Positions 3,165-29,562 of a DNA stretch of 33,207 nucleotides are shown one piece after another. The notes under the pieces were generated by a model. The model did not search any database. It was given only the letters and a program-made list of their open reading frames with translations, and was not told the DNA's origin. Made by a program: the position numbers and the translations under genes. Every line of letters begins with the position of its first letter. Position 1 is the first letter of the stretch. Source of the stretch: an uncultured Bacteroidota bacterium (GTDB lineage: Bacteria; Bacteroidota; Bacteroidia; Bacteroidales; P3). Location of the stretch: contig CACYZN010000025.1 in NCBI GenBank assembly GCA_902778925.1, forward strand, positions 1-33,207. The letters are read 5' to 3'.

Positions 3165-3228
3165 ATGAAAGGTGAAAGGTGAAAATTTTCGGTTTACAAA
3201 TTATTGATAATCACCTTTCACCTTTCAT
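3165..3228. repeat. Palindromic repeat with 7-bp-period arms (18-bp perfect inverted repeat)
   Basis: Arms 3165-3182 and 3211-3228 are perfect reverse complements over 18 bp, separated by 28 nt. Each arm is built of repeats of AAAGGTG (CACCTTT on the other side), and the right side continues with a further imperfect unit to about 3236. It lies 10 bp after the stop codon of the outer membrane protein gene, so its RNA could fold as a 3' hairpin, but it lacks a U-tract typical of an intrinsic terminator. It resembles dispersed intergenic repeat DNA rather than a dedicated regulatory site. Confidence 0.8.
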
Positions 3229-3253
3229 CTTTCACCATTTATCTAAAAAAAGT

Positions 3254-4549: not shown

Positions 4550-4551
4550 TT

Positions 4552-4591
4552 CGTTATATCGTTATACCGTTATTTCGTTATTTCGTTATCA
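4552..4591. repeat. Five tandem 8-bp repeats spanning the adhesin stop codon and the intergenic gap
   Basis: On the + strand the units read CGTTATAT, CGTTATAC, CGTTATTT, CGTTATTT and CGTTATCA. On the coding (-) strand the array supplies the final adhesin codons ATA ACG AAA and the TAA stop. It then forms nearly the whole AT-rich leader up to 2 bp before the ATG of the lipoprotein gene. Confidence 0.85.
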
Positions 4592-7500
4592 CTATCTTTT
4601 GGCTCTGGCCGGCGAGGCGGAGGAGGTAGACGCCCGCGGAGGGGAATACTGAATTCTGAATTGCGAATTTCGAATTGCGAATTTCAACATTGAACAGGCG
4701 GCGGCCCATGACGTCGTAGACTTCGAGGGTGCCCTCCCCTTCCACTATCAGACGGTCGCCGTCGAGGTGGGCGAAGGCTTGATTGTGTGATTGCGATATT
4801 ATGCCATTACCAGAGTCACCGCAGTCGCCTGAGAGGCAAAGTCCCATGGGCAACGGCGGCAGAGGGCCTTTGGCCTGGGCCGGGGCGGTGGTGCTGCGGG
4901 TGGCGTAGTAGAAGGTGAGGGTGGCCGGGGCGGTGGTGTGGACCAGCACAGCCTGGCCCATGGCGAGGCTGTCGGTGGCGACAGGGGCGTCATGGGCTTC
5001 CCAGCGGCCGTCGGGAAGCAGGCTGTAGTAGGGGCAGTCGAGGTGGACCGGGAAGGGATAGGGGTTGCCCACGAGATTCCAACCCGCCAGGTCGTTGGGA
5101 GCGCCGGCGGTGAGGGCGATGCTGTAGCTCGCCTCACTGTTGGGCATGCCGTCGTAGATGAGCGCCTCGTCGGTGGCGGTGCGATAGATGTAGCCGCGGG
5201 CGGGGCTGAAGGTGAAAGAGTGGGTCTTGTAGTTCTGCCAGGTGGCCGTAGGCTCGTCGTAGCGGAAGAGGTCGTAGGGGGCTGTGGTAAAGACGCTGCC
5301 GACGGTCCAGTAGGTCTCACCCTCGTCGTGCACCGGTGTCGCGATGGCCTGCCATCCGTCCCCAATGGAGATGGCTACGGGGTTCACGGCCAAGGTGCCG
5401 CTCTGGTAGGTGATGTTGGTGAAATAACCTGTCACATCGTGGCCGTCGGCGTCGAAGATATGGAACGAGGTCACCGCATTCTCTGTCTTCTCGCCTTCAC
5501 CCGGGATGATGTTGGTCACAGTGCCGTCGGCGGTGGCGGTCCAGGTGAGGGCGTCGGGGACGCCTGTCACGATGAAGTCGTCGTGCGCCATCAGGGTAAA
5601 GGGGGTGCCGTCGTAGAACCTGCTGCCGCTGCCGGCCGTCACCGTGATGGCGGTGTCGTTGGACGTCACCGTCAGCGTCCCGGGGTAGTACTCAATCCAA
5701 TAGTTGGAGGTCTTGTCGATGGTGGTGTCGTTCGGGGCGGTGATTCTTGCATTTTCGATGTAGTTTGTGCATGAACCCACATTGGTCTGGCTGCCGCTGA
5801 AGGACAAGCGTGAAATAACGTCATCATGGACGAGGGCAGGTTCGTCATCGGCCGTCGTACAGGTGTAGTTGTTCGAGGTCAGCGGGGTGCCGTCGTACTT
5901 CTTGGTGGCGTCGGTGGCGGTGATGTCGATAGGTCTCTGTTCCACCGTGATGTTGAAGGTGCTTTCATCGATGCTGCAGCCCCATCCTTGGTGGCTGGTG
6001 GCCGTAACGAGAAACGTGGCGTTAGTGACGGCGAATTCAGGATCGCCATACACTCTGTCATATTCATTATTATTTTGGTCTTTTTTATGTTCTACAGAGC
6101 ATCCGAGCGAGTCCAATTCGATGCCGGACAAACCCGTTATGGAAAGGTCGGAGTACTGATGATATATCCACACATCCCTGATGGCATCGCCGTAGATGAT
6201 GTTTTGATCATTGTCGTAGATGATGTTTTGATTGAGAATGGTGATTTGAGTGATTTTCGGCAAAGGACGAACGTGGATGGCGATTGAATCACAGGTGGTG
6301 TTGCCACAGGAGTCGGTCACGGTCCAGAGTTGTTTGTAGTGTCGCACCCCATTGTCAGAATCGCCCTGAGTTATTCTATACCCCCGAGGATGATAAAAAT
6401 TAAAGCGGGAAGTATCCATCGAGCTTTGGACACTGAAATGCTCCTGCAGACTTGTGCAGTTGGAGTGCAGATTCGTAACCGTTATTTCGGCTGCGACACG
6501 GGTGACGGTGTTTTCGTAGTTGCCGTCGGGGTCGACGCACAGGGTGGTGTCATGAGGTATGTCGAAGGTGGGCCCTGTCGTGTCTTTGACGAGCTGCGCC
6601 TGATAGACAGTCGCCGGGTTGCCGTAGGTATCGGCCACCTCGTAGGCGATGACCAGCGTGTCGGTGCATTGTTCGCCGAGCTTCACCGTTTTCGACGAAC
6701 CCACCAGGCTGACATCCTCGCCCGTGCAGGCGTCGCTGATGCCGAAGAGGGTTTTCAGCTGCGCAATGTTGTGGATGACCAGGATGCTGTCGCTGAGGTT
6801 CGTGGCCAATGCACTCCACAGCGTGTCGTGGGCAGCGACCGGGGGTGTCATGTCGCCACCGCTCACATAGATGACCCTGCTTGCCTGGTCGCAATAGTTA
6901 GGGTTGGAAATAGAGATGGTATAGGTGCGTGCCCACTTCCAGCCGTTGTTGTCAGCCGATATTGTCAAATCATTTGTCGTCACCGCGAAGTCTGTGGATT
7001 GCAGCGTGTCGTTGTTTGCCAGTATCAAATTCTTGATGCTGTCAGCGGAAGGCAGCGCGTCGGTATTGGATGGGGAATAGCATTCGTCCCGGTCTGTGAT
7101 GTTGTCGGGCAAATTGTCCGTTCTAATCAAAAGATCACGGCATTTGATAGTAAGATCGCCTTTGTTGACAGAGACCTTATAGTTGGGGTTTGGCGTTGTA
7201 CAGCTGGCTGTCAGAATGTCGGGGTAGTTGCCCACATTCTCCGAGTTGTCGTTCCTGAAGTAGTGGATTGTTCCGAGGCTGTCGCCGTCGACAAGTCCAG
7301 TGACTGTACCGGAGAAAACGGGGTCGGTGTCTCCGTAGGTTTTGCTGGTGTCATTGACGATGATGGTGGCGGGGCGCGGGGTGATGGAGAGAGTGCCGAA
7401 AATCGTATCGACATCGTAGTGGCAGCTGTGGTCGATGCCGTTGGAGATGCTGTAGGTGAATTTTGCCCCGTTCTCAAGGGTGTCAACATTGATGAGGGTT

Positions 7501-10500: not shown

Positions 10501-12944
10501 ACGACGGCACCGATGGCGAGGCAGCGGCTGACGGTGGCATTGTAGTTCCGTCCCACCACGCCACCATAGTTGCTGCCGGTGCCGCTGACGGTGGCGGCGG
10601 AGGTGCAGCCCACGACGGTGGCGGCGGCAGTATAGCCCACGATGCCGCCGTGATGATCGGGGGATGATCCACTAGTGCGACTATAGATGGCGACGGTAGC
10701 GGTGGCGTGGCAGTTCTTGACGGTGCCGAGATCATTCTCGCCCACGATGCCGCCCACCTCTTGGAAACCCGTGATGCGGCTGTCGCTGAGGGTGACGTTC
10801 TTCACCGTGCCGCCAACGATGTAGCCGAAGAGGCCTTTGTAGCTGTTGCTCGCATTGATGCGGATGCCGCTGACGGTGTGGCCGCAGCCGTCGAAGGTGC
10901 CGCGGAAGGGGCGGTTGTAGCTGTTATAGTTGCCGATAGAGGTGTAGTTGTGTTCGTTGCTTTCGGCATCGTTCCACTGTGAGGTGCAGCTGTAGGCGAT
11001 ATCGGCGCCGAGCTTGAAGAAGGTGCCGCTGAAGTCGTTGTCGCCGTTGACCAGGGTGGCCAGCAGGTCGAGACCTTCGGTGGTGGTGATGACGTAGGCG
11101 CGCTCGGCGGTGGTGCCGTCGTGGTCGGCGTCGACGCCCCAGAGGTTATTCCAGGTGGCGGTGTAGGAGCGGTCGCCGGTGGAGCCCCGGGCGATAGTGG
11201 CGGTCTGGGTGGCGGCGTCGAGGCCGGTGCCCGTCCAGCCAAGGAAGAAGCAGCCCGTGGGCTCGCTGGGATTGGTGAGGGTGAAGGTGGGGGTCTCGAC
11301 GGTGTAGGTGGCGGGATTGGAGGCGCTGACGCCATCGATGCCGTAGTCGTAGGTGATGTTATAGGTGATTATCTCCCAGTTGGCGGTGTAGGAGCGGTGT
11401 CCAGTGGAGCCTTGGGCGATGGTGACGGTCTGGGTGGCGGCGGCGAGGCCGGTGCCCGTCCATCCGGCGAAGGTGTAGCCCTCGCGGGTGGGGGTGTTGA
11501 GGGTGAATTCGGGGGTCTCGACGGTGTATGTGTCGGGGTTGGGGGTGGCCACGCTGCCGCCGTCGAGGTCGTAGGAAATATTATAGGTGATGGGGGTCCA
11601 GTTGGCGGTATAGGAACGGTCGCCGGTGGAGCCCTGGGCGATGGTGAGTTCGGAGGTCGGAGTGCTGAGTTCGGAGTTGACACCGCCCGTCCAGCCGGTG
11701 AAGGCGTAATTGGCACGGGTGGGGTTGACGAGGGTGAAGGTGGCCGTCTCGATGGTGTACGTGTCGGGGTTGGCGGTGGCCACGCTGCCGCCGGCGAGGT
11801 CGTAGGTGAGGTTATAGGTGATGGTGGTCCAGTGGGCGGTGTAGCTGAGGGGGGCGTGCGTATGGTTGGCGACGGTGACGGTGGACTGCGGCGTGTTGCC
11901 GTTGCTACCCGTCCAGCCCGTGAAGGTGTAGCCCTCACGGGTGGGGTTGGTGAGGGTGAAGGTGGCCGTCTCCCAGGTGTAGGTGGCGGGGTTGGAGGCC
12001 GTGCCGCCGTCGAGGTTGTAGCTGATGGACCAGGCATAGCTGCTCTCGAGGGAGTAGAGGGTATTGTTTCCGGACCAGGTAAAGTTGTTGCCGGCGAGGT
12101 CCTTGACGGTGATGTTGTTGTTGACGTTGATGTTGAGGCCGGTGACGGTGAGGCTGCTGCTGGCATTTTCAGGGATGGTGCCGCTGAAGGTGAGCACGTT
12201 GCTGCCGCTGCCGCCAAGGTAGTTGAGGATGCCCCAGCTGGTGCTCAGCGTGAGCGCGCCGTTGACGGTGACAATCTCGTTGAAAGCCACGGTGACATAG
12301 ACGGTGTTGCCCTTGGCGTGCCGGCCGGGGTTGACGGTGACAGCCGACACGGAGGGATTATGGGTGTCGACGGCCTGGATGTGCGCTTTGATATTCCGGG
12401 CGACCCACTGGTCGCTGCCCGTCGTACCGGAAGCATTGAGGCGCAGCACCAAGGTGCTGAAACTGTTGGGGATAATGAGGCGACCGTCGGTGGCGCGGCA
12501 GCCAGAGTTGAACTTCTGCTTCGTGAGGGGGTATTTGTTGCCATATCCCCAGGGGTCGGTGGTACTGGCGTTGTAGCCGACGGAGGTGACGGGGAAAGTG
12601 TAGCTCCTGAAGGTAGTGTCAGTGGAACTAGTATGCATCTCGAAGCCAGCCATATATAGGGAGAGGTTTATATTGCCGGGGTCGCCATTACTGCAGTCAT
12701 TGCGGTTGTCGCAGGTGTTGGTGTTGTTGACCAGAAGCTGCAGGTATTCAAAGGCATCGTCAACTTCTTTGGCTTCGAAGCTGAGGGTCATACGCAGCTG
12801 GGCACCAAGGAAAGCCAGATAACTCTTCGTGCCATTGGTGCAGTAGTAGGTGCTGGAGACGCTCTTGTAGCCGTTGGCGTCGTAGCCGTCATCATTGGCG
12901 GCGAACTGGCTGTTCGAAATGGTGACATCCTTGATGTCGAACAT
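4578..12944 (-). CDS. Body of giant T9SS-sorted multi-repeat adhesin (cut from its N-terminus by an in-frame TAA)
   Basis: This frame (2788 aa from the first ATG at 12944) continues the frame of the 152-aa ORF upstream; only the TAA at 12999-13001 separates them. Domains, numbered from 12944: residues 200-300, a beta-sandwich (TVNPGRHAKGNTVYVTVAFN); 303-610, four InlB-type repeats (YNLDGG...NPTREGYTFTGW...YTANW); 615-1530, three blocks of GLUG-like repeats (VGGIVGEN, GGVVGRN, VGGLVG); about 1670-1755, an SprB-like segment (VSGGPGNGFRYLW...GYYSVTVTDS); then MBG-like repeats (KTYDGTALTG, KKYDGTPLTS) and Cys-containing HYR-like parts. The end is a T9SS sorting domain (LEVYDVMGRRLF...AGVYLLRLAGQSQKIVITK). 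The likely role is surface adhesion. The ATG at 12944 has a GC-rich leader and no signal peptide, so independent translation would give a non-exported protein. It may be a pseudogene, a read-through product, or a sequencing error. Confidence 0.8.
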   Translation of the reverse strand: MFDIKDVTISNSQFAANDDGYDANGYKSVSSTYYCTNGTKSYLAFLGAQLRMTLSFEAKEVDDAFEYLQLLVNNTNTCDNRNDCSNGDPGNINLSLYMAGFEMHTSSTDTTFRSYTFPVTSVGYNASTTDPWGYGNKYPLTKQKFNSGCRATDGRLIIPNSFSTLVLRLNASGTTGSDQWVARNIKAHIQAVDTHNPSVSAVTVNPGRHAKGNTVYVTVAFNEIVTVNGALTLSTSWGILNYLGGSGSNVLTFSGTIPENASSSLTVTGLNINVNNNITVKDLAGNNFTWSGNNTLYSLESSYAWSISYNLDGGTASNPATYTWETATFTLTNPTREGYTFTGWTGSNGNTPQSTVTVANHTHAPLSYTAHWTTITYNLTYDLAGGSVATANPDTYTIETATFTLVNPTRANYAFTGWTGGVNSELSTPTSELTIAQGSTGDRSYTANWTPITYNISYDLDGGSVATPNPDTYTVETPEFTLNTPTREGYTFAGWTGTGLAAATQTVTIAQGSTGHRSYTANWEIITYNITYDYGIDGVSASNPATYTVETPTFTLTNPSEPTGCFFLGWTGTGLDAATQTATIARGSTGDRSYTATWNNLWGVDADHDGTTAERAYVITTTEGLDLLATLVNGDNDFSGTFFKLGADIAYSCTSQWNDAESNEHNYTSIGNYNSYNRPFRGTFDGCGHTVSGIRINASNSYKGLFGYIVGGTVKNVTLSDSRITGFQEVGGIVGENDLGTVKNCHATATVAIYSRTSGSSPDHHGGIVGYTAAATVVGCTSAATVSGTGSNYGGVVGRNYNATVSRCLAIGAVVTANDDSGPVVGFNIGTVTDCHHRHCTVGGNAQYDLYAVVAGTGVTLAPSGDATVAYPYGGLQLYGSAILYGDTLYAPQGATVGLTISYSGNLMATAGTLSGTANPYTLTMPDQDVIIILDHWGIAAGADGTQEHPYLITTPEGLELLASQVNSGNPFCGTFFKLGANIDLDGYSIPPIGDYSQSRPFQGSLDGDNYTITNMSLAGDDCQGLFGYLAGGRVENLTVSNATLSGRGDYRGVVCGYNLGGTLQNCQVTGSSLADSGQYVGGVVGGTFGGAVVSNCQCTSTTIDITGDFVGGVAGIAANTTVENCTASAAVGGINQVGGIVGLLGSDAQLEGCTNSGLVRGIAQVGGLVGYQRAGSGQCSGSNNSGNVRWSAMGGGVCGYAEDTTMLEGCSSVSILPYDTIIRIQNVDDLTQIRDNVNNGSNSYEGILIVLDWDLNLGNGWTPIGTPEHPFRGTFDGQDHTINFGIYNESNDYQGFFGYMQGTVKNVNFTQCSVIGRNYVGVIAGYCHGTISNCYSYREKVEGEKYVGGLVGMARYSEIQDCFNGNNIVGEQYVGGIVGDFADHSTLTTSLYGGNVSRCYNYGMVKATDDSSYVGGLAGHISAEVKHCYNSGIVAGGDFVGGLCGLIDGGGILHCYNAGHVSATHDNKGAICGDYSMFVNSNNNYYDFQMSTVQDNNASGYNTSRMTGTGLMSIFGTDCWSYHDNEYPSLKTTKRDSTYFHVSVKPLLLPGNMPVDKVVQPFCGVTGNATDSQVEWSRYGTASAAVDILHLADKDSITLLGCGVDTLKVSHPGYGFERLVPIVVAAREATVQTVHACGNSYKWNNQNYYETGFYTYGDNCDNKQALDLTITPVTITTSTLINSTCETIPDGAVHASVSGGPGNGFRYLWTNSLTGDTIGNTPTLTDITAGYYSVTVTDSLFPTCEQTAMITLFSSNTVELTIKSCDASKTYDGTALTGNRYVVTEQGFEPDTLPADSFAILANGDTLRVTFGNGTLINVDTLENGAKFTYSISNGIDHSCHYDVDTIFGTLSITPRPATIIVNDTSKTYGDTDPVFSGTVTGLVDGDSLGTIHYFRNDNSENVGNYPDILTASCTTPNPNYKVSVNKGDLTIKCRDLLIRTDNLPDNITDRDECYSPSNTDALPSADSIKNLILANNDTLQSTDFAVTTNDLTISADNNGWKWARTYTISISNPNYCDQASRVIYVSGGDMTPPVAAHDTLWSALATNLSDSILVIHNIAQLKTLFGISDACTGEDVSLVGSSKTVKLGEQCTDTLVIAYEVADTYGNPATVYQAQLVKDTTGPTFDIPHDTTLCVDPDGNYENTVTRVAAEITVTNLHSNCTSLQEHFSVQSSMDTSRFNFYHPRGYRITQGDSDNGVRHYKQLWTVTDSCGNTTCDSIAIHVRPLPKITQITILNQNIIYDNDQNIIYGDAIRDVWIYHQYSDLSITGLSGIELDSLGCSVEHKKDQNNNEYDRVYGDPEFAVTNATFLVTATSHQGWGCSIDESTFNITVEQRPIDITATDATKKYDGTPLTSNNYTCTTADDEPALVHDDVISRLSFSGSQTNVGSCTNYIENARITAPNDTTIDKTSNYWIEYYPGTLTVTSNDTAITVTAGSGSRFYDGTPFTLMAHDDFIVTGVPDALTWTATADGTVTNIIPGEGEKTENAVTSFHIFDADGHDVTGYFTNITYQSGTLAVNPVAISIGDGWQAIATPVHDEGETYWTVGSVFTTAPYDLFRYDEPTATWQNYKTHSFTFSPARGYIYRTATDEALIYDGMPNSEASYSIALTAGAPNDLAGWNLVGNPYPFPVHLDCPYYSLLPDGRWEAHDAPVATDSLAMGQAVLVHTTAPATLTFYYATRSTTAPAQAKGPLPPLPMGLCLSGDCGDSGNGIISQSHNQAFAHLDGDRLIVEGEGTLEVYDVMGRRLFNVEIRNSKFAIQNSVFPSAGVYLLRLAGQSQKIVITK
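4648..4688. repeat. In-frame repeat DNA inside the adhesin sorting domain
   Basis: Two 14-bp units (TTGCGAATTTCGAA at 4661-4674 and a near copy at 4675-4688), plus flanking GAATTCTGAA, form an AT-rich near-palindromic patch in GC-rich coding DNA. It encodes VEIRNSKFAIQNS in the loop between two strands of the T9SS C-terminal domain. The peptide EIRNSKF recurs in the response regulator at 28107-28721. Confidence 0.7.
11646..11681. repeat. In-frame repeat DNA inside the second InlB-type repeat
   Basis: The + strand carries GAGTTCGGAGGTCGGAGT followed by GCTGAGTTCGGAGTTGAC, with recurring AGTTCGGAG. On the coding strand it encodes VNSELSTPTSELT. The equivalent positions of the two neighbouring repeats read TGLAAATQTVT and TGLDAATQTAT, so this repeat unit has been replaced or altered here. 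Confidence 0.5.
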
Positions 12945-19495: not shown

Positions 19496-19600
19496 TCCCC
19501 TCCGGTAGTTCTTATGTACTTCTTATGTATTTCTTATGTATTTCTTATGTTTTAAACATAAATACAACATAAGAAATACATAAGAAGTAGAACGACCGGA
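19496..19600. repeat. Palindromic repeat of 11-bp units, copy 1
   Basis: The left side has four tandem 11-bp units (TTCTTATGTAC, TTCTTATGTAT twice, TTCTTATGTTT). Arms 19517-19539 and 19567-19589 are perfect 23-bp reverse complements. The outer ends TCCGGTAGTTCT (19501-19512) and AGAACGACCGGA (19589-19600) pair at 11 of 12 positions. Positions 19496-19589 match copy 2 (27933-28026) with a single mismatch at 19507. It lies between xylA and secA. Confidence 0.95.
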
Positions 19601-27932: not shown

Positions 27933-28031
27933 TCCCCTCCGGTCGTTCTTATGTACTTCTTATGTATTTCTTATGTATTTCTTATGTTTTAAACATAAAT
28001 ACAACATAAGAAATACATAAGAAGTACATAA
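27933..28031. repeat. Palindromic repeat of 11-bp units, copy 2
   Basis: This copy matches 19496-19589 over 94 bp with one difference (27944, C instead of A). Its perfect inverted arms are 28 bp long (27949-27976 with 28004-28031), 5 bp longer than in copy 1, because the right arm keeps an extra CATAA step. The centre TTATGTTTTAAACATAA is itself palindromic. It lies between the symporter promoter and the response regulator gene. No transposase is near. Confidence 0.95.
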
Positions 28032-28106: not shown

Positions 28107-28721
28107 ATGGACAACGAACAACGTAAACGGATACTGGTGGTCGACGACGAGGAGGACCTGCGCGAGATACTGCGCTTCAACCTCGAGGCCGAGGGCTTCG
28201 ACGTCGAGACGGCTGCCTCTGCAGAGGAAGCACTCTCGAAATTCGAAATCCGGAATTCGAAATTCGAAATTATTCTGCTCGACGTGATGATGGATCGGAT
28301 GTCGGGCTTCGAGATGGCCCAGCGGCTGCGCGATGCCGGCGACCGCACGCCCATCGTCTTTCTCACCGCCCGCGACACCCACGACGACGAGCTGCAGGGC
28401 TTCGACGTCGGCGCCGACGACTATATCACCAAGCCCTTCTCGTTCGACACCGTGCTGGCACGGGTGCGCGCCGTGCTGCGGCGCACCGGTACGGCCAATA
28501 CGACCGGCCTGACCAAGAGGGAACACCTGATACTCGACCTCTTCCGGCAGCAGCCCGGCCGCTTCTTCTCGCGCGAGGAGATACTGGCGGCGGTGTGGCC
28601 CGACGACACGCTGGTCGGCGTGCGCTCGGTCGATGTGCATATCGCGCGCCTGCGCAAGAAGCTCGGCGCCGACGGCAACCGTATTGTGAACAAAACAGGA
28701 TTTGGTTATGGACTGGTCTGA
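28107..28721 (+). CDS. OmpR/PhoB-family response regulator
   Basis: I choose ATG 28107 (MDNEQRKRILVVDDEEDL); the earlier in-frame codons back to 28056 are unsupported. The product is 204 aa, slightly short for the family. The receiver domain (1-120) has the acidic pair Asp13/Asp14, phospho-acceptor Asp59 in IILLDVMMD, Thr87 and Lys109 in DDYITKPF. The C-terminal winged helix (about 130-204) has LTKREHLILDLFRQQPGRFFSREEIL, VRSVDVHIARLRKKLG and GFGYGLV, with a shortened first beta hairpin. Residues 45-55 (KFEIRNSKFEI), just before the phospho-Asp strand, come from repeat DNA. The kinase gene overlaps its 3' end by 14 nt, so the pair is translationally coupled. The signal and target genes are unknown. 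Confidence 0.93.
   Translation: MDNEQRKRILVVDDEEDLREILRFNLEAEGFDVETAASAEEALSKFEIRNSKFEIILLDVMMDRMSGFEMAQRLRDAGDRTPIVFLTARDTHDDELQGFDVGADDYITKPFSFDTVLARVRAVLRRTGTANTTGLTKREHLILDLFRQQPGRFFSREEILAAVWPDDTLVGVRSVDVHIARLRKKLGADGNRIVNKTGFGYGLV
28237..28271. repeat. In-frame palindromic repeat DNA inside the receiver domain
   Basis: GAAATTCGAAATC then CGGAATTCGAAATTCGAAATT, with period-9 AATTCGAAA units and embedded GAATTC and TTCGAA palindromes, forms an AT-rich patch in GC-rich coding DNA. It encodes KFEIRNSKFEI at residues 45-55, exactly the alpha2-beta3 junction of the receiver. EIRNSKF also occurs in the adhesin sorting domain at 4648-4688. Confidence 0.75.
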
Positions 28722-29562
28722 TGTAGTATTGCTCATACTTGCGGCAACAATTTTTGTGCTCTATGTCCGCCTGATGCTGAAGAACCAGCGTCTGCGGCAG
28801 ATGGCCGACGAGGCCAACCGGCTGCGCCTCGAGGCGTCGGAGGCCGAGCACCGCAACCGCCAGCTCAAGCAGGAGATGACCTCCAACATAGCCCACGAAC
28901 TGAAGACCCCCGTCAGCTCCATTCGTGGCTACCTCGAGATACTGCTCGGCGACAAGCCCGTCGACGACGATCGCCGCCGCCACTACCTGCAGCGCAGCTA
29001 CAGCCAGACGCTGCGCCTGAGCGACTTGATACAGGACGTCTCCATCATCAACAAGCTCGAGGAGAGCGCCGACCTCTTCCCCCGCACCGAGGTGGATGCC
29101 GCCGAGGTGGCCAGGGAGGCTATCGAAGACCTTGGCGACAAGGCCGAGGCTGCCGGCATCACCATCGCCAACAACTTGCCTGCCATGCCGCTGCAGGGCA
29201 ACCGCGAGCTGCTCTACTGCATCTTCCGCAACCTGGCCGAGAACAGCATCGCCTACGCCGGCCAGGGCATCGACATCGTCCTCGAGACCTACAAGGAGAG
29301 CCCCGACCACTACTTCATACACTACTACGACACCGGCAAGGGCGTGGCCGACGAGTATCTGTCGCGCCTCTTCGACCGCTTCGTGCGCATCGACGAGGGC
29401 CGCTCGCGCCAGAACGGCGGCACTGGCCTCGGCCTCAGCATCGTCAAACATGCCGTCCTCTTCCACGGCGGCGAGATATACGCCAAGAACCGAGGAGGTG
29501 TCGGCTCAGCCGACAACCGCCTCTCCGGCCTAGAATACTTCTTCTCACTGAAAAAACAATAA
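28708..29562 (+). CDS. Sensor histidine kinase
   Basis: ATG 28708 overlaps the response regulator stop (28719-28721); a TTG two codons earlier is less likely. The product is 284 aa. One membrane helix (residues 5-23, DVVLLILAATIFVLYVRLM) is followed by a coiled segment rich in Glu/Arg. There is no periplasmic sensor domain, so the signal is probably sensed in the membrane or cytosol or through a partner. The dimerisation domain has NIAHELKTPVSSIRGYLEIL with the phospho-acceptor His63. The ATPase domain has the N box NLAENSIAYA, G1 YDTGKGV, an F box LFDRFVRIDEGRSR and G2 GGTGLGLSIVKHAV. All catalytic parts appear intact. The gene is coupled to the upstream regulator, and the thioesterase follows 3 bp later. 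Confidence 0.94.
   Translation: MDWSDVVLLILAATIFVLYVRLMLKNQRLRQMADEANRLRLEASEAEHRNRQLKQEMTSNIAHELKTPVSSIRGYLEILLGDKPVDDDRRRHYLQRSYSQTLRLSDLIQDVSIINKLEESADLFPRTEVDAAEVAREAIEDLGDKAEAAGITIANNLPAMPLQGNRELLYCIFRNLAENSIAYAGQGIDIVLETYKESPDHYFIHYYDTGKGVADEYLSRLFDRFVRIDEGRSRQNGGTGLGLSIVKHAVLFHGGEIYAKNRGGVGSADNRLSGLEYFFSLKKQ

Follow-up and report, generated by a model that had tools for sequence, protein, structure and literature searches.

The window considered here, the whole stretch of DNA that was analysed, spans 33,207 nucleotides of contig CACYZN010000025.1 in the draft genome of an uncultured member of the Bacteroidales (assembly GCA_902778925.1). At 28107..28721, on the plus strand, lies a gene for an OmpR-type response regulator of 204 amino acids, comprising a receiver domain (Pfam PF00072, E 4.3e-29) and a winged-helix DNA-binding domain (PF00486, E 5.1e-19). 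Residues D14, D59, and K109 are invariant across 53 aligned sequences (the query plus 52 of 80 fetched regulators); the receiver, winged helix, and phospho-acceptor aspartate of an OmpR-type regulator are all present. The partner histidine kinase (PF00512 and PF02518) is encoded next, at 28702..29562, also on the plus strand, and contains no array in this genome.

Within the receiver-coding part of the regulator gene, the 36 nt at 28236..28271 on the plus strand consist of a tandemly repeated heptamer, (TCGAAAT)5.1 (Tandem Repeats Finder, period 7, 5.1 copies). The array encodes, in frame, residues 44–55 (SKFEIRNSKFEI) upstream of ILLDVMMD, and its G+C content is 12/36 by direct count, compared with 57.4% in a 423-kb sample of the same genome. 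A first-pass annotation, made from the letters of the window, had recognised repeat DNA of low G+C in frame in the receiver and an intact phospho-Asp strand beyond it, both of which hold. It had placed the segment at 28237–28271 and residues 45–55 and had read the DNA as palindromic with a period of 9. Self-identity is 25/29 at lag 7 and only 3/27 at lag 9, and period 9 is hence rejected. Only 6-bp cores such as TTCGAA are palindromic; a repeat search (arms of at least 12, seed 9) found no inverted repeat within the array, and a long palindrome is likewise rejected. A 7-bp unit in at least three tandem copies is the form taken by bacterial heptanucleotide repeats, and the regulator array has it.

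In an AlphaFold2 model of the regulator (mean pLDDT 88.5), helix alpha2 covers residues 39–49 and strand beta3 residues 55–59. On this predicted secondary structure, the array would spell the end of alpha2, the alpha2–beta3 loop, and the first residue of beta3.

Dispersal of the heptamer units

The pattern AAATTCGAAAT, with at most one mismatch, has six matches in the window against 0.26 expected. Across the 2.2-Mb draft genome, TCGAAATTCGAAAT at the same tolerance has 51 matches, 27 of them forward and 24 reverse, compared with none for the reversed control pattern; a unique sequence is thereby rejected. The matches form 21 clusters, 13 intergenic and eight inside open reading frames (ORFs) as called by a mechanical rule. 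Two of these eight fall in Pfam-supported genes, namely this regulator and an epimerase; the other six comprise three that share a single, probably spurious 91-aa ORF and one each within a 2788-aa ORF, within a 311-aa ORF, and at an ORF start. Between genes, the copies mostly adjoin further heptamer-like sequence of CACCT type. Composite intergenic blocks, in which a TCGAAAT array has both an 11-bp array and heptamer arrays of CACCT or CTCTCC type as neighbours, were noted at L077 692–887 and 5371–5613, L079 18870–19049, and L080 8306–8582 of this genome.

Arrays of other units are also numerous. The 423-kb sample contains 34 period-7, 47 period-11, and 24 period-6 arrays, and at most five for each other period from 8 to 24; one first-order Markov shuffle of the same 423 kb gave no arrays for periods 7 and 11 and two for period 6. 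By both measures (51 matches against 0, 34 arrays against 0), dispersed copies are thus above chance, as in bacterial heptanucleotide repeats generally. In the window, a degenerate second array of the TCGAAAT family (GAATTGC/GAATTTC, period 7, Tandem Repeats Finder) lies at 4644..4683 on the minus strand, near the C-terminal end of the 2788-aa ORF, and encodes EIRNSKFAIQNS. Two period-7 arrays of an AAAGGTG-class unit were called by the same program, with no strand assigned, at 3166–3184 and 3211–3234; the site of the latter is filled by an AATTCTC array in another species (G002).

Several repeats of other periods lie nearby. An 8-bp tandem array (TCGTTATA, 4.9 copies) at 4551–4589 spans the end of the 2788-aa ORF, and a 222-bp repeat of 3.8 copies at 11150–11998, within the same ORF, probably represents a repeated domain. 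Arrays of an 11-bp unit (TTCTTATGTAT) occur at 19505–19550 and at 27946–28031; at the latter place they form an inverted pair, which lies upstream of the regulator in the gap between divergent genes. Among the 47 period-11 arrays of the 423-kb sample, 41 are intergenic by a simple ORF rule, several have inverted neighbours, and most belong to two unit families (AAATACATAAG, 24 arrays; AACGATAGTAC, 16 arrays).

The TCGAAAT unit is near-private to this genome among the 41 same-genus genomes sampled: an 18-nt pattern of the family, with at most one mismatch, has 29 matches here, none in 35 of the 40 others, and 6, 6, 2, 1, and 1 in the remaining five. Privacy is not general, however. AATTCTC is found in 24/41 same-genus genomes (12 matches in G036), and TTTCCAC in 10 of 14 genomes searched (96 matches in G127); CTCATCA has 102 matches in G002 and is absent from 35/41. 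These unit searches covered 41 of 120 same-genus genomes or 14 chosen ones, and the count outside the genus is of AATTCTC only: of 119 genomes from across the order, 11 have it, and this genome is one of the 11 as it is one of the 24. The reversed control of the AATTCTC pattern is itself abundant in two genomes of the order (G219 and G220, with 25 and 34 matches), and other genera thus have heptamer families of their own. The genus is rich in heptamer arrays but not alone in this.

Synthesis of tandem-repeat DNA by a bacterial reverse transcriptase is described in PMC12632851, and an RNA-templated, telomerase-like enzyme of this kind, as in DRT10, could make heptamers that are later captured in the chromosome. 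Some units are indeed near-private to one genome, and RVT_1 was found in five of the 14 genomes searched, including array-rich G127 and G036. The same search gave no RVT_1 match in five other array-rich genomes (G000, the present one, and G002, G027, G028, and G068; assemblies 93%–98% complete), and many different units coexist in a single genome. Such an enzyme is a very improbable source, and we reject it on its absence from those five genomes, its presence in the two others notwithstanding.

The regulator slot in orthologues

Regulator matches with E <= 1e-60 occur in 40 of the 120 same-genus genomes, this one included, and these orthologues are 61%–85% identical to the regulator; in named genomes, regulators reach at most 51% identity in the best segment, among the matches listed. 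None of the 39 other orthologues from the genus, 29 of them array-free, has the peptide spelled by the array, nor, farther afield, does any of the 27 rows inspected of the 53-row alignment, the query apart; a peptide conserved among homologues is thus rejected. The proposal of the first-pass annotation that a protein segment had been created from dispersed repeat DNA is supported by this absence and by the 21 dispersed clusters: neither outcome that would have refuted it, a peptide common to most homologues or DNA unique in the genome, was obtained. It proved too modest, since it is the site, more than the repeat sequence, that matters.

The homologous place, here termed the slot, was read in all 40 orthologues. 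Nine contain compact period-7 arrays, each of 36 nt and with lag-7 identity of 20–28 of 29; one has a longer array (G001, AATTCAA-type, lag-7 identity 28/44), one is doubtful (G107, 19/38), and 29 have none. Eight of the compact slots show six unit spellings: TTCGAAA in this genome, AATTCTC in G036, CTCATCA in G002, GTTTCAA in G022 and G068 (identical), TTTCCAC in G108 and G127, and a CCTCTCA-type unit in G118. The ninth, in G137, has decayed towards ordinary sequence and is identical to the G108 slot at 26/36 positions, a value reached in 0 of 20000 shuffles. The 29 array-free orthologues have ordinary loops of variable length with lag-7 identity of at most 15/32.

No stop codon occurs in the slot or reading frame of any of the 40 orthologues. 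A repeat with a 7-bp unit in a gene shifts the frame upon any single-unit change, and slippage in copy number could accordingly switch the regulator off and on, as reported elsewhere for phase variation with heptamer or heptanucleotide repeats (PMC8262952, PMC13001214). All 40 orthologues nevertheless read through, with no off-frame allele among them at one genome per species; the array is imperfect, and imperfect arrays slip less; and other genes that host arrays look like housekeeping genes (Mfd, PriA, and CoaBC domains). Phase variation of the regulator is thus unsupported, and we consider a contingency locus quite improbable.

Ten chosen pairs were compared, and in the seven that carry different units the slot (39 columns) is 44%–62% identical and the coding flanks 75%–95%. 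The close pair G022 and G108 (flanks 87%–94%) has slots only 56% identical, whereas the more distant G022 and G068 (flanks 84%–89%) have slots 97% identical. Maximum-likelihood trees of 35 of the 40 orthologues (L227–L231 left out), in which many deeper branches are poorly supported, group G022, G108, and G127 with support of 100. The array-free G015 joins G002 in the nucleotide tree (support 83) and both G036 and G002 in the protein tree (67), and the array-free G092 falls, less firmly, among array-bearers too. With array-free sequences nested among array-bearing ones, either losses or repeated gains are needed.

How common a slot unit is elsewhere in its own genome differs from case to case. 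The unit is abundant in G000 (29 matches), G002 (102), and G127 (96), and moderately common in G036 (12), a less clear case; GTTTCAA in G022 and G068, and TTTCCAC in G108, occur, as exact patterns, only at this gene. Some slots are thus well accounted for by dispersal, and others by inheritance or by local drift.

One account of these slots needs nothing to arrive from elsewhere: an ancestral array would have evolved in concert, point changes being spread through it by slippage. The nine strongest arrays are all 36 nt in length, and, compared unshifted, AATTCGA of this genome and AATTCTC of G036 are only two bases apart. TTC or ATC stands at slot bases 7–9 in seven of nine slots, several array-free orthologues carry TTCGAC or TTCGAA at the entry to beta3, and one allele is common to G137, G108, and G127; all of this is as in-place descent would have it. 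It leaves unexplained, however, why slot units of G000, G002, and G127 stand at many unrelated sites of the same genomes, and it sits badly with the divergent slots of the close pair G022 and G108. A register common to the slots is suggested by the alignments but is partial, with shift 0 being best in 15 of 28 slot pairs when shifts of −3 to +3 are tried. Concerted evolution in place is, on balance, unlikely.

What the compact slots share is a pattern of hydrophobic residues. Seven of the nine have Phe at slot residue 3, the exceptions being G002 with Ile and G137 with Tyr. At residue 10, eight have Phe and G002 has Ile, and at residue 12 each of the nine has either Ile or Leu. In array-free orthologues, residue 3 is usually Leu or Ile, and a Phe or Tyr often stands two residues before the residue that leads into ILLD. 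Judging from these homologue patterns, residues 46 and 53 of the regulator may be buried. A 7-bp unit regains its codon phase every 21 nt, or seven codons, and one unit therefore serves both positions if they are seven residues apart. We infer that this seven-residue geometry, together with the frame requirement, fixes the length of 36 nt; the equal length of the slots may reflect selection on the fold, and the array segment may be a tolerated structural filler without a regulatory role.

Array sites in other genes

The regulator is not an isolated case. In 13 contig samples around it (one per genome), 83 period-7 arrays yielded 35 sites with an orthologous place elsewhere. Period-7 arrays occur in at least two species at 21 of the 35, counting weaker arrays (at least 2.4 copies) in the second species and the CoaBC linker twice; at 17 of the 21 the units differ at two or more of seven bases, some of these pairs by only two, so that local drift can account for part of the turnover. 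Among orthologous segments, 127 of 284 contain a period-7 array, compared with 2, 1, 3, 5, 3, and 0 for periods 5, 6, 8, 9, 10, and 11. The 284 pairs, which came from the 61 of 83 arrays that gave a projection, are not independent, and regulator and kinase supply 136 of them; with these two genes left out, the count is 54 of 148 against 0–5 for other periods. Random-site controls gave period-7 arrays in 11/201, 9/253, and 0/212 segments and are thus not all zero. Chance co-location of arrays is rejected by the period and random-site controls.

It could still be asked whether the regulator segment itself is ordinary conserved or chance sequence, given that receivers in the 53-sequence alignment differ at the alpha2–beta3 place in sequence and, to some extent, in length. 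Period 7 at 20–28 of 29 in nine species, the dispersed copies, and both controls refute this explanation, the least probable of those considered.

The partner kinase, N-terminal segments, and the CoaBC linker show the same behaviour. In the kinase, arrays of AATTCTC (G036), ACCCACT (G118), and an AATTCAA-type unit (G001) stand at one place; none was called in the ten other samples, and by eye G137 has a degenerate one. In some N-termini that resemble signal peptides by eye, species differ in the heptamer that spells the hydrophobic core. A Pfam check of ten array-bearing proteins returned Mfd, PriA, UvrA, CoaBC, M16 peptidase, epimerase, and ABC ATPase domains, and the CoaBC array falls between the two domains of that protein. 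Dispersed arrays are thus found in frame in unrelated proteins. All units taken together, 131 period-7 arrays in 1.28 Mb of samples comprise 67 in ORFs, 24 at ORF edges, and 40 intergenic; the simple ORF rule covers 91% of bases and over-calls, and the genic counts are hence upper estimates. For an array inside a gene, it is nearly obligatory that the unit be free of stops in each of the three coding frames, and this is so for 61 of the 67 ORF-internal arrays.

Taken together, these observations make it probable that permissive sites in genes are occupied again and again by dispersed heptamer arrays, with one array displacing another. Under this model, tandem arrays of 7-bp units would be dispersed through the genomes of the genus, with the abundant units differing by lineage, and would become installed time and again where extra or altered residues are tolerated, as in loops, linkers, and apparent signal-peptide cores. 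At such sites, the array of one lineage would supplant that of another. In the regulator, selection would retain those arrays that are in frame, stop-free in the frames read, and 12 codons long, and that offer a large hydrophobic residue at two positions seven residues apart.

Spread between sites would occur by copying. Slippage would expand an array in place but moves no unit between places, and ectopic recombination or template switching is thus invoked alongside it; of the resulting arrays, selection would keep those compatible with frame and fold. When filled and empty states were aligned at eight sites, no consistent target-site duplication was seen by eye, and no signature deciding the mechanism of spread was seen. 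More tentatively, an active genome-wide process may copy the current heptamer of a species into period-7 sites, those of housekeeping genes included, respelling protein segments with length, frame, and hydrophobic positions kept. If so, period-7 repeats would supply the whole genus with a mobile font in which loops, linkers, and signal peptides of proteins are written.

Known repeat families

The arrays belong to the broad class of bacterial heptanucleotide repeats, and share with the cyanobacterial STRR, the LSSR, and the GGGNATC and TAACTGA repeats the dispersal of 7-bp arrays and a lineage-specific distribution. The STRR were reportedly described by Vioque in 1997. The LSSR of Mrazek (2007) and the TAACTGA repeats are treated in PMC4679880, which also dates to 2007 the observation that period 7 is favoured among bacterial repeats and gives polymerase slippage as the explanation put forward. 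The same source and PMC4692102 mention heptanucleotide repeats in a few Bacteroidetes and place the published ones mainly between genes, with GGGNATC repeats under-represented in coding regions (PMC4692102). Of the present arrays, 13 of 21 TCGAAAT-family clusters are intergenic, and 40 of 131 arrays for all units under the over-calling ORF rule. Orthologous coding sites filled by different units are not described in the parts of this literature available to us.

Other systems are comparable in principle. Rickettsia palindromic elements, to which the first-pass annotation had likened the segment, are single, hairpin-forming palindromic elements of roughly 100 bp or more. They too are dispersed repeat DNA turned into an in-frame piece of unrelated proteins, and to that extent the comparison stands. 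It fails in the particulars, the heptamer array having short tandem units, no long palindrome, and, at one site, a sequence that depends on the species, with different units reusing the place. The amino-acid tandem repeats of Borgs likewise evolve fast, occur in both genic and intergenic positions, and are enriched in proteins with signal peptides; according to PMC9879509, they mostly make disordered regions, with units divisible by three in one group of ORFs. The heptamer array, by contrast, has a 7-bp unit and a seven-residue period and is modelled within a helix and a strand. PARCEL, a tandem protein motif of 25 residues, is likewise encoded by repeat DNA, for which shuffling has been proposed both inside a genome and from one genome to another (PMC2996958), whereas heptamer arrays keep their period, not their sequence, across species.

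Among the open-licence papers searched, we found no report of a single coding site that different heptamers reuse from species to species at constant length and frame. The regulator loop, spelled by six repeat units in eight species and with array-free relatives for comparison, offers a natural experiment on how segments of protein are built out of repeat DNA. It makes testable the origin of such segments from repeats, the requirements of a loop (length, frame, and hydrophobic positions), and the reason why period 7 is favoured.

A separate observation concerns a short gene with an N-terminal array, found in G036 (L084 3499–4119) and G127 (L243 16793–17413). Its flanks are 99% identical between the two genomes, and the regulator flanks of the same pair are 92% identical, suggesting, from sequence identity, that the short gene may have been exchanged recently between G036 and G127.
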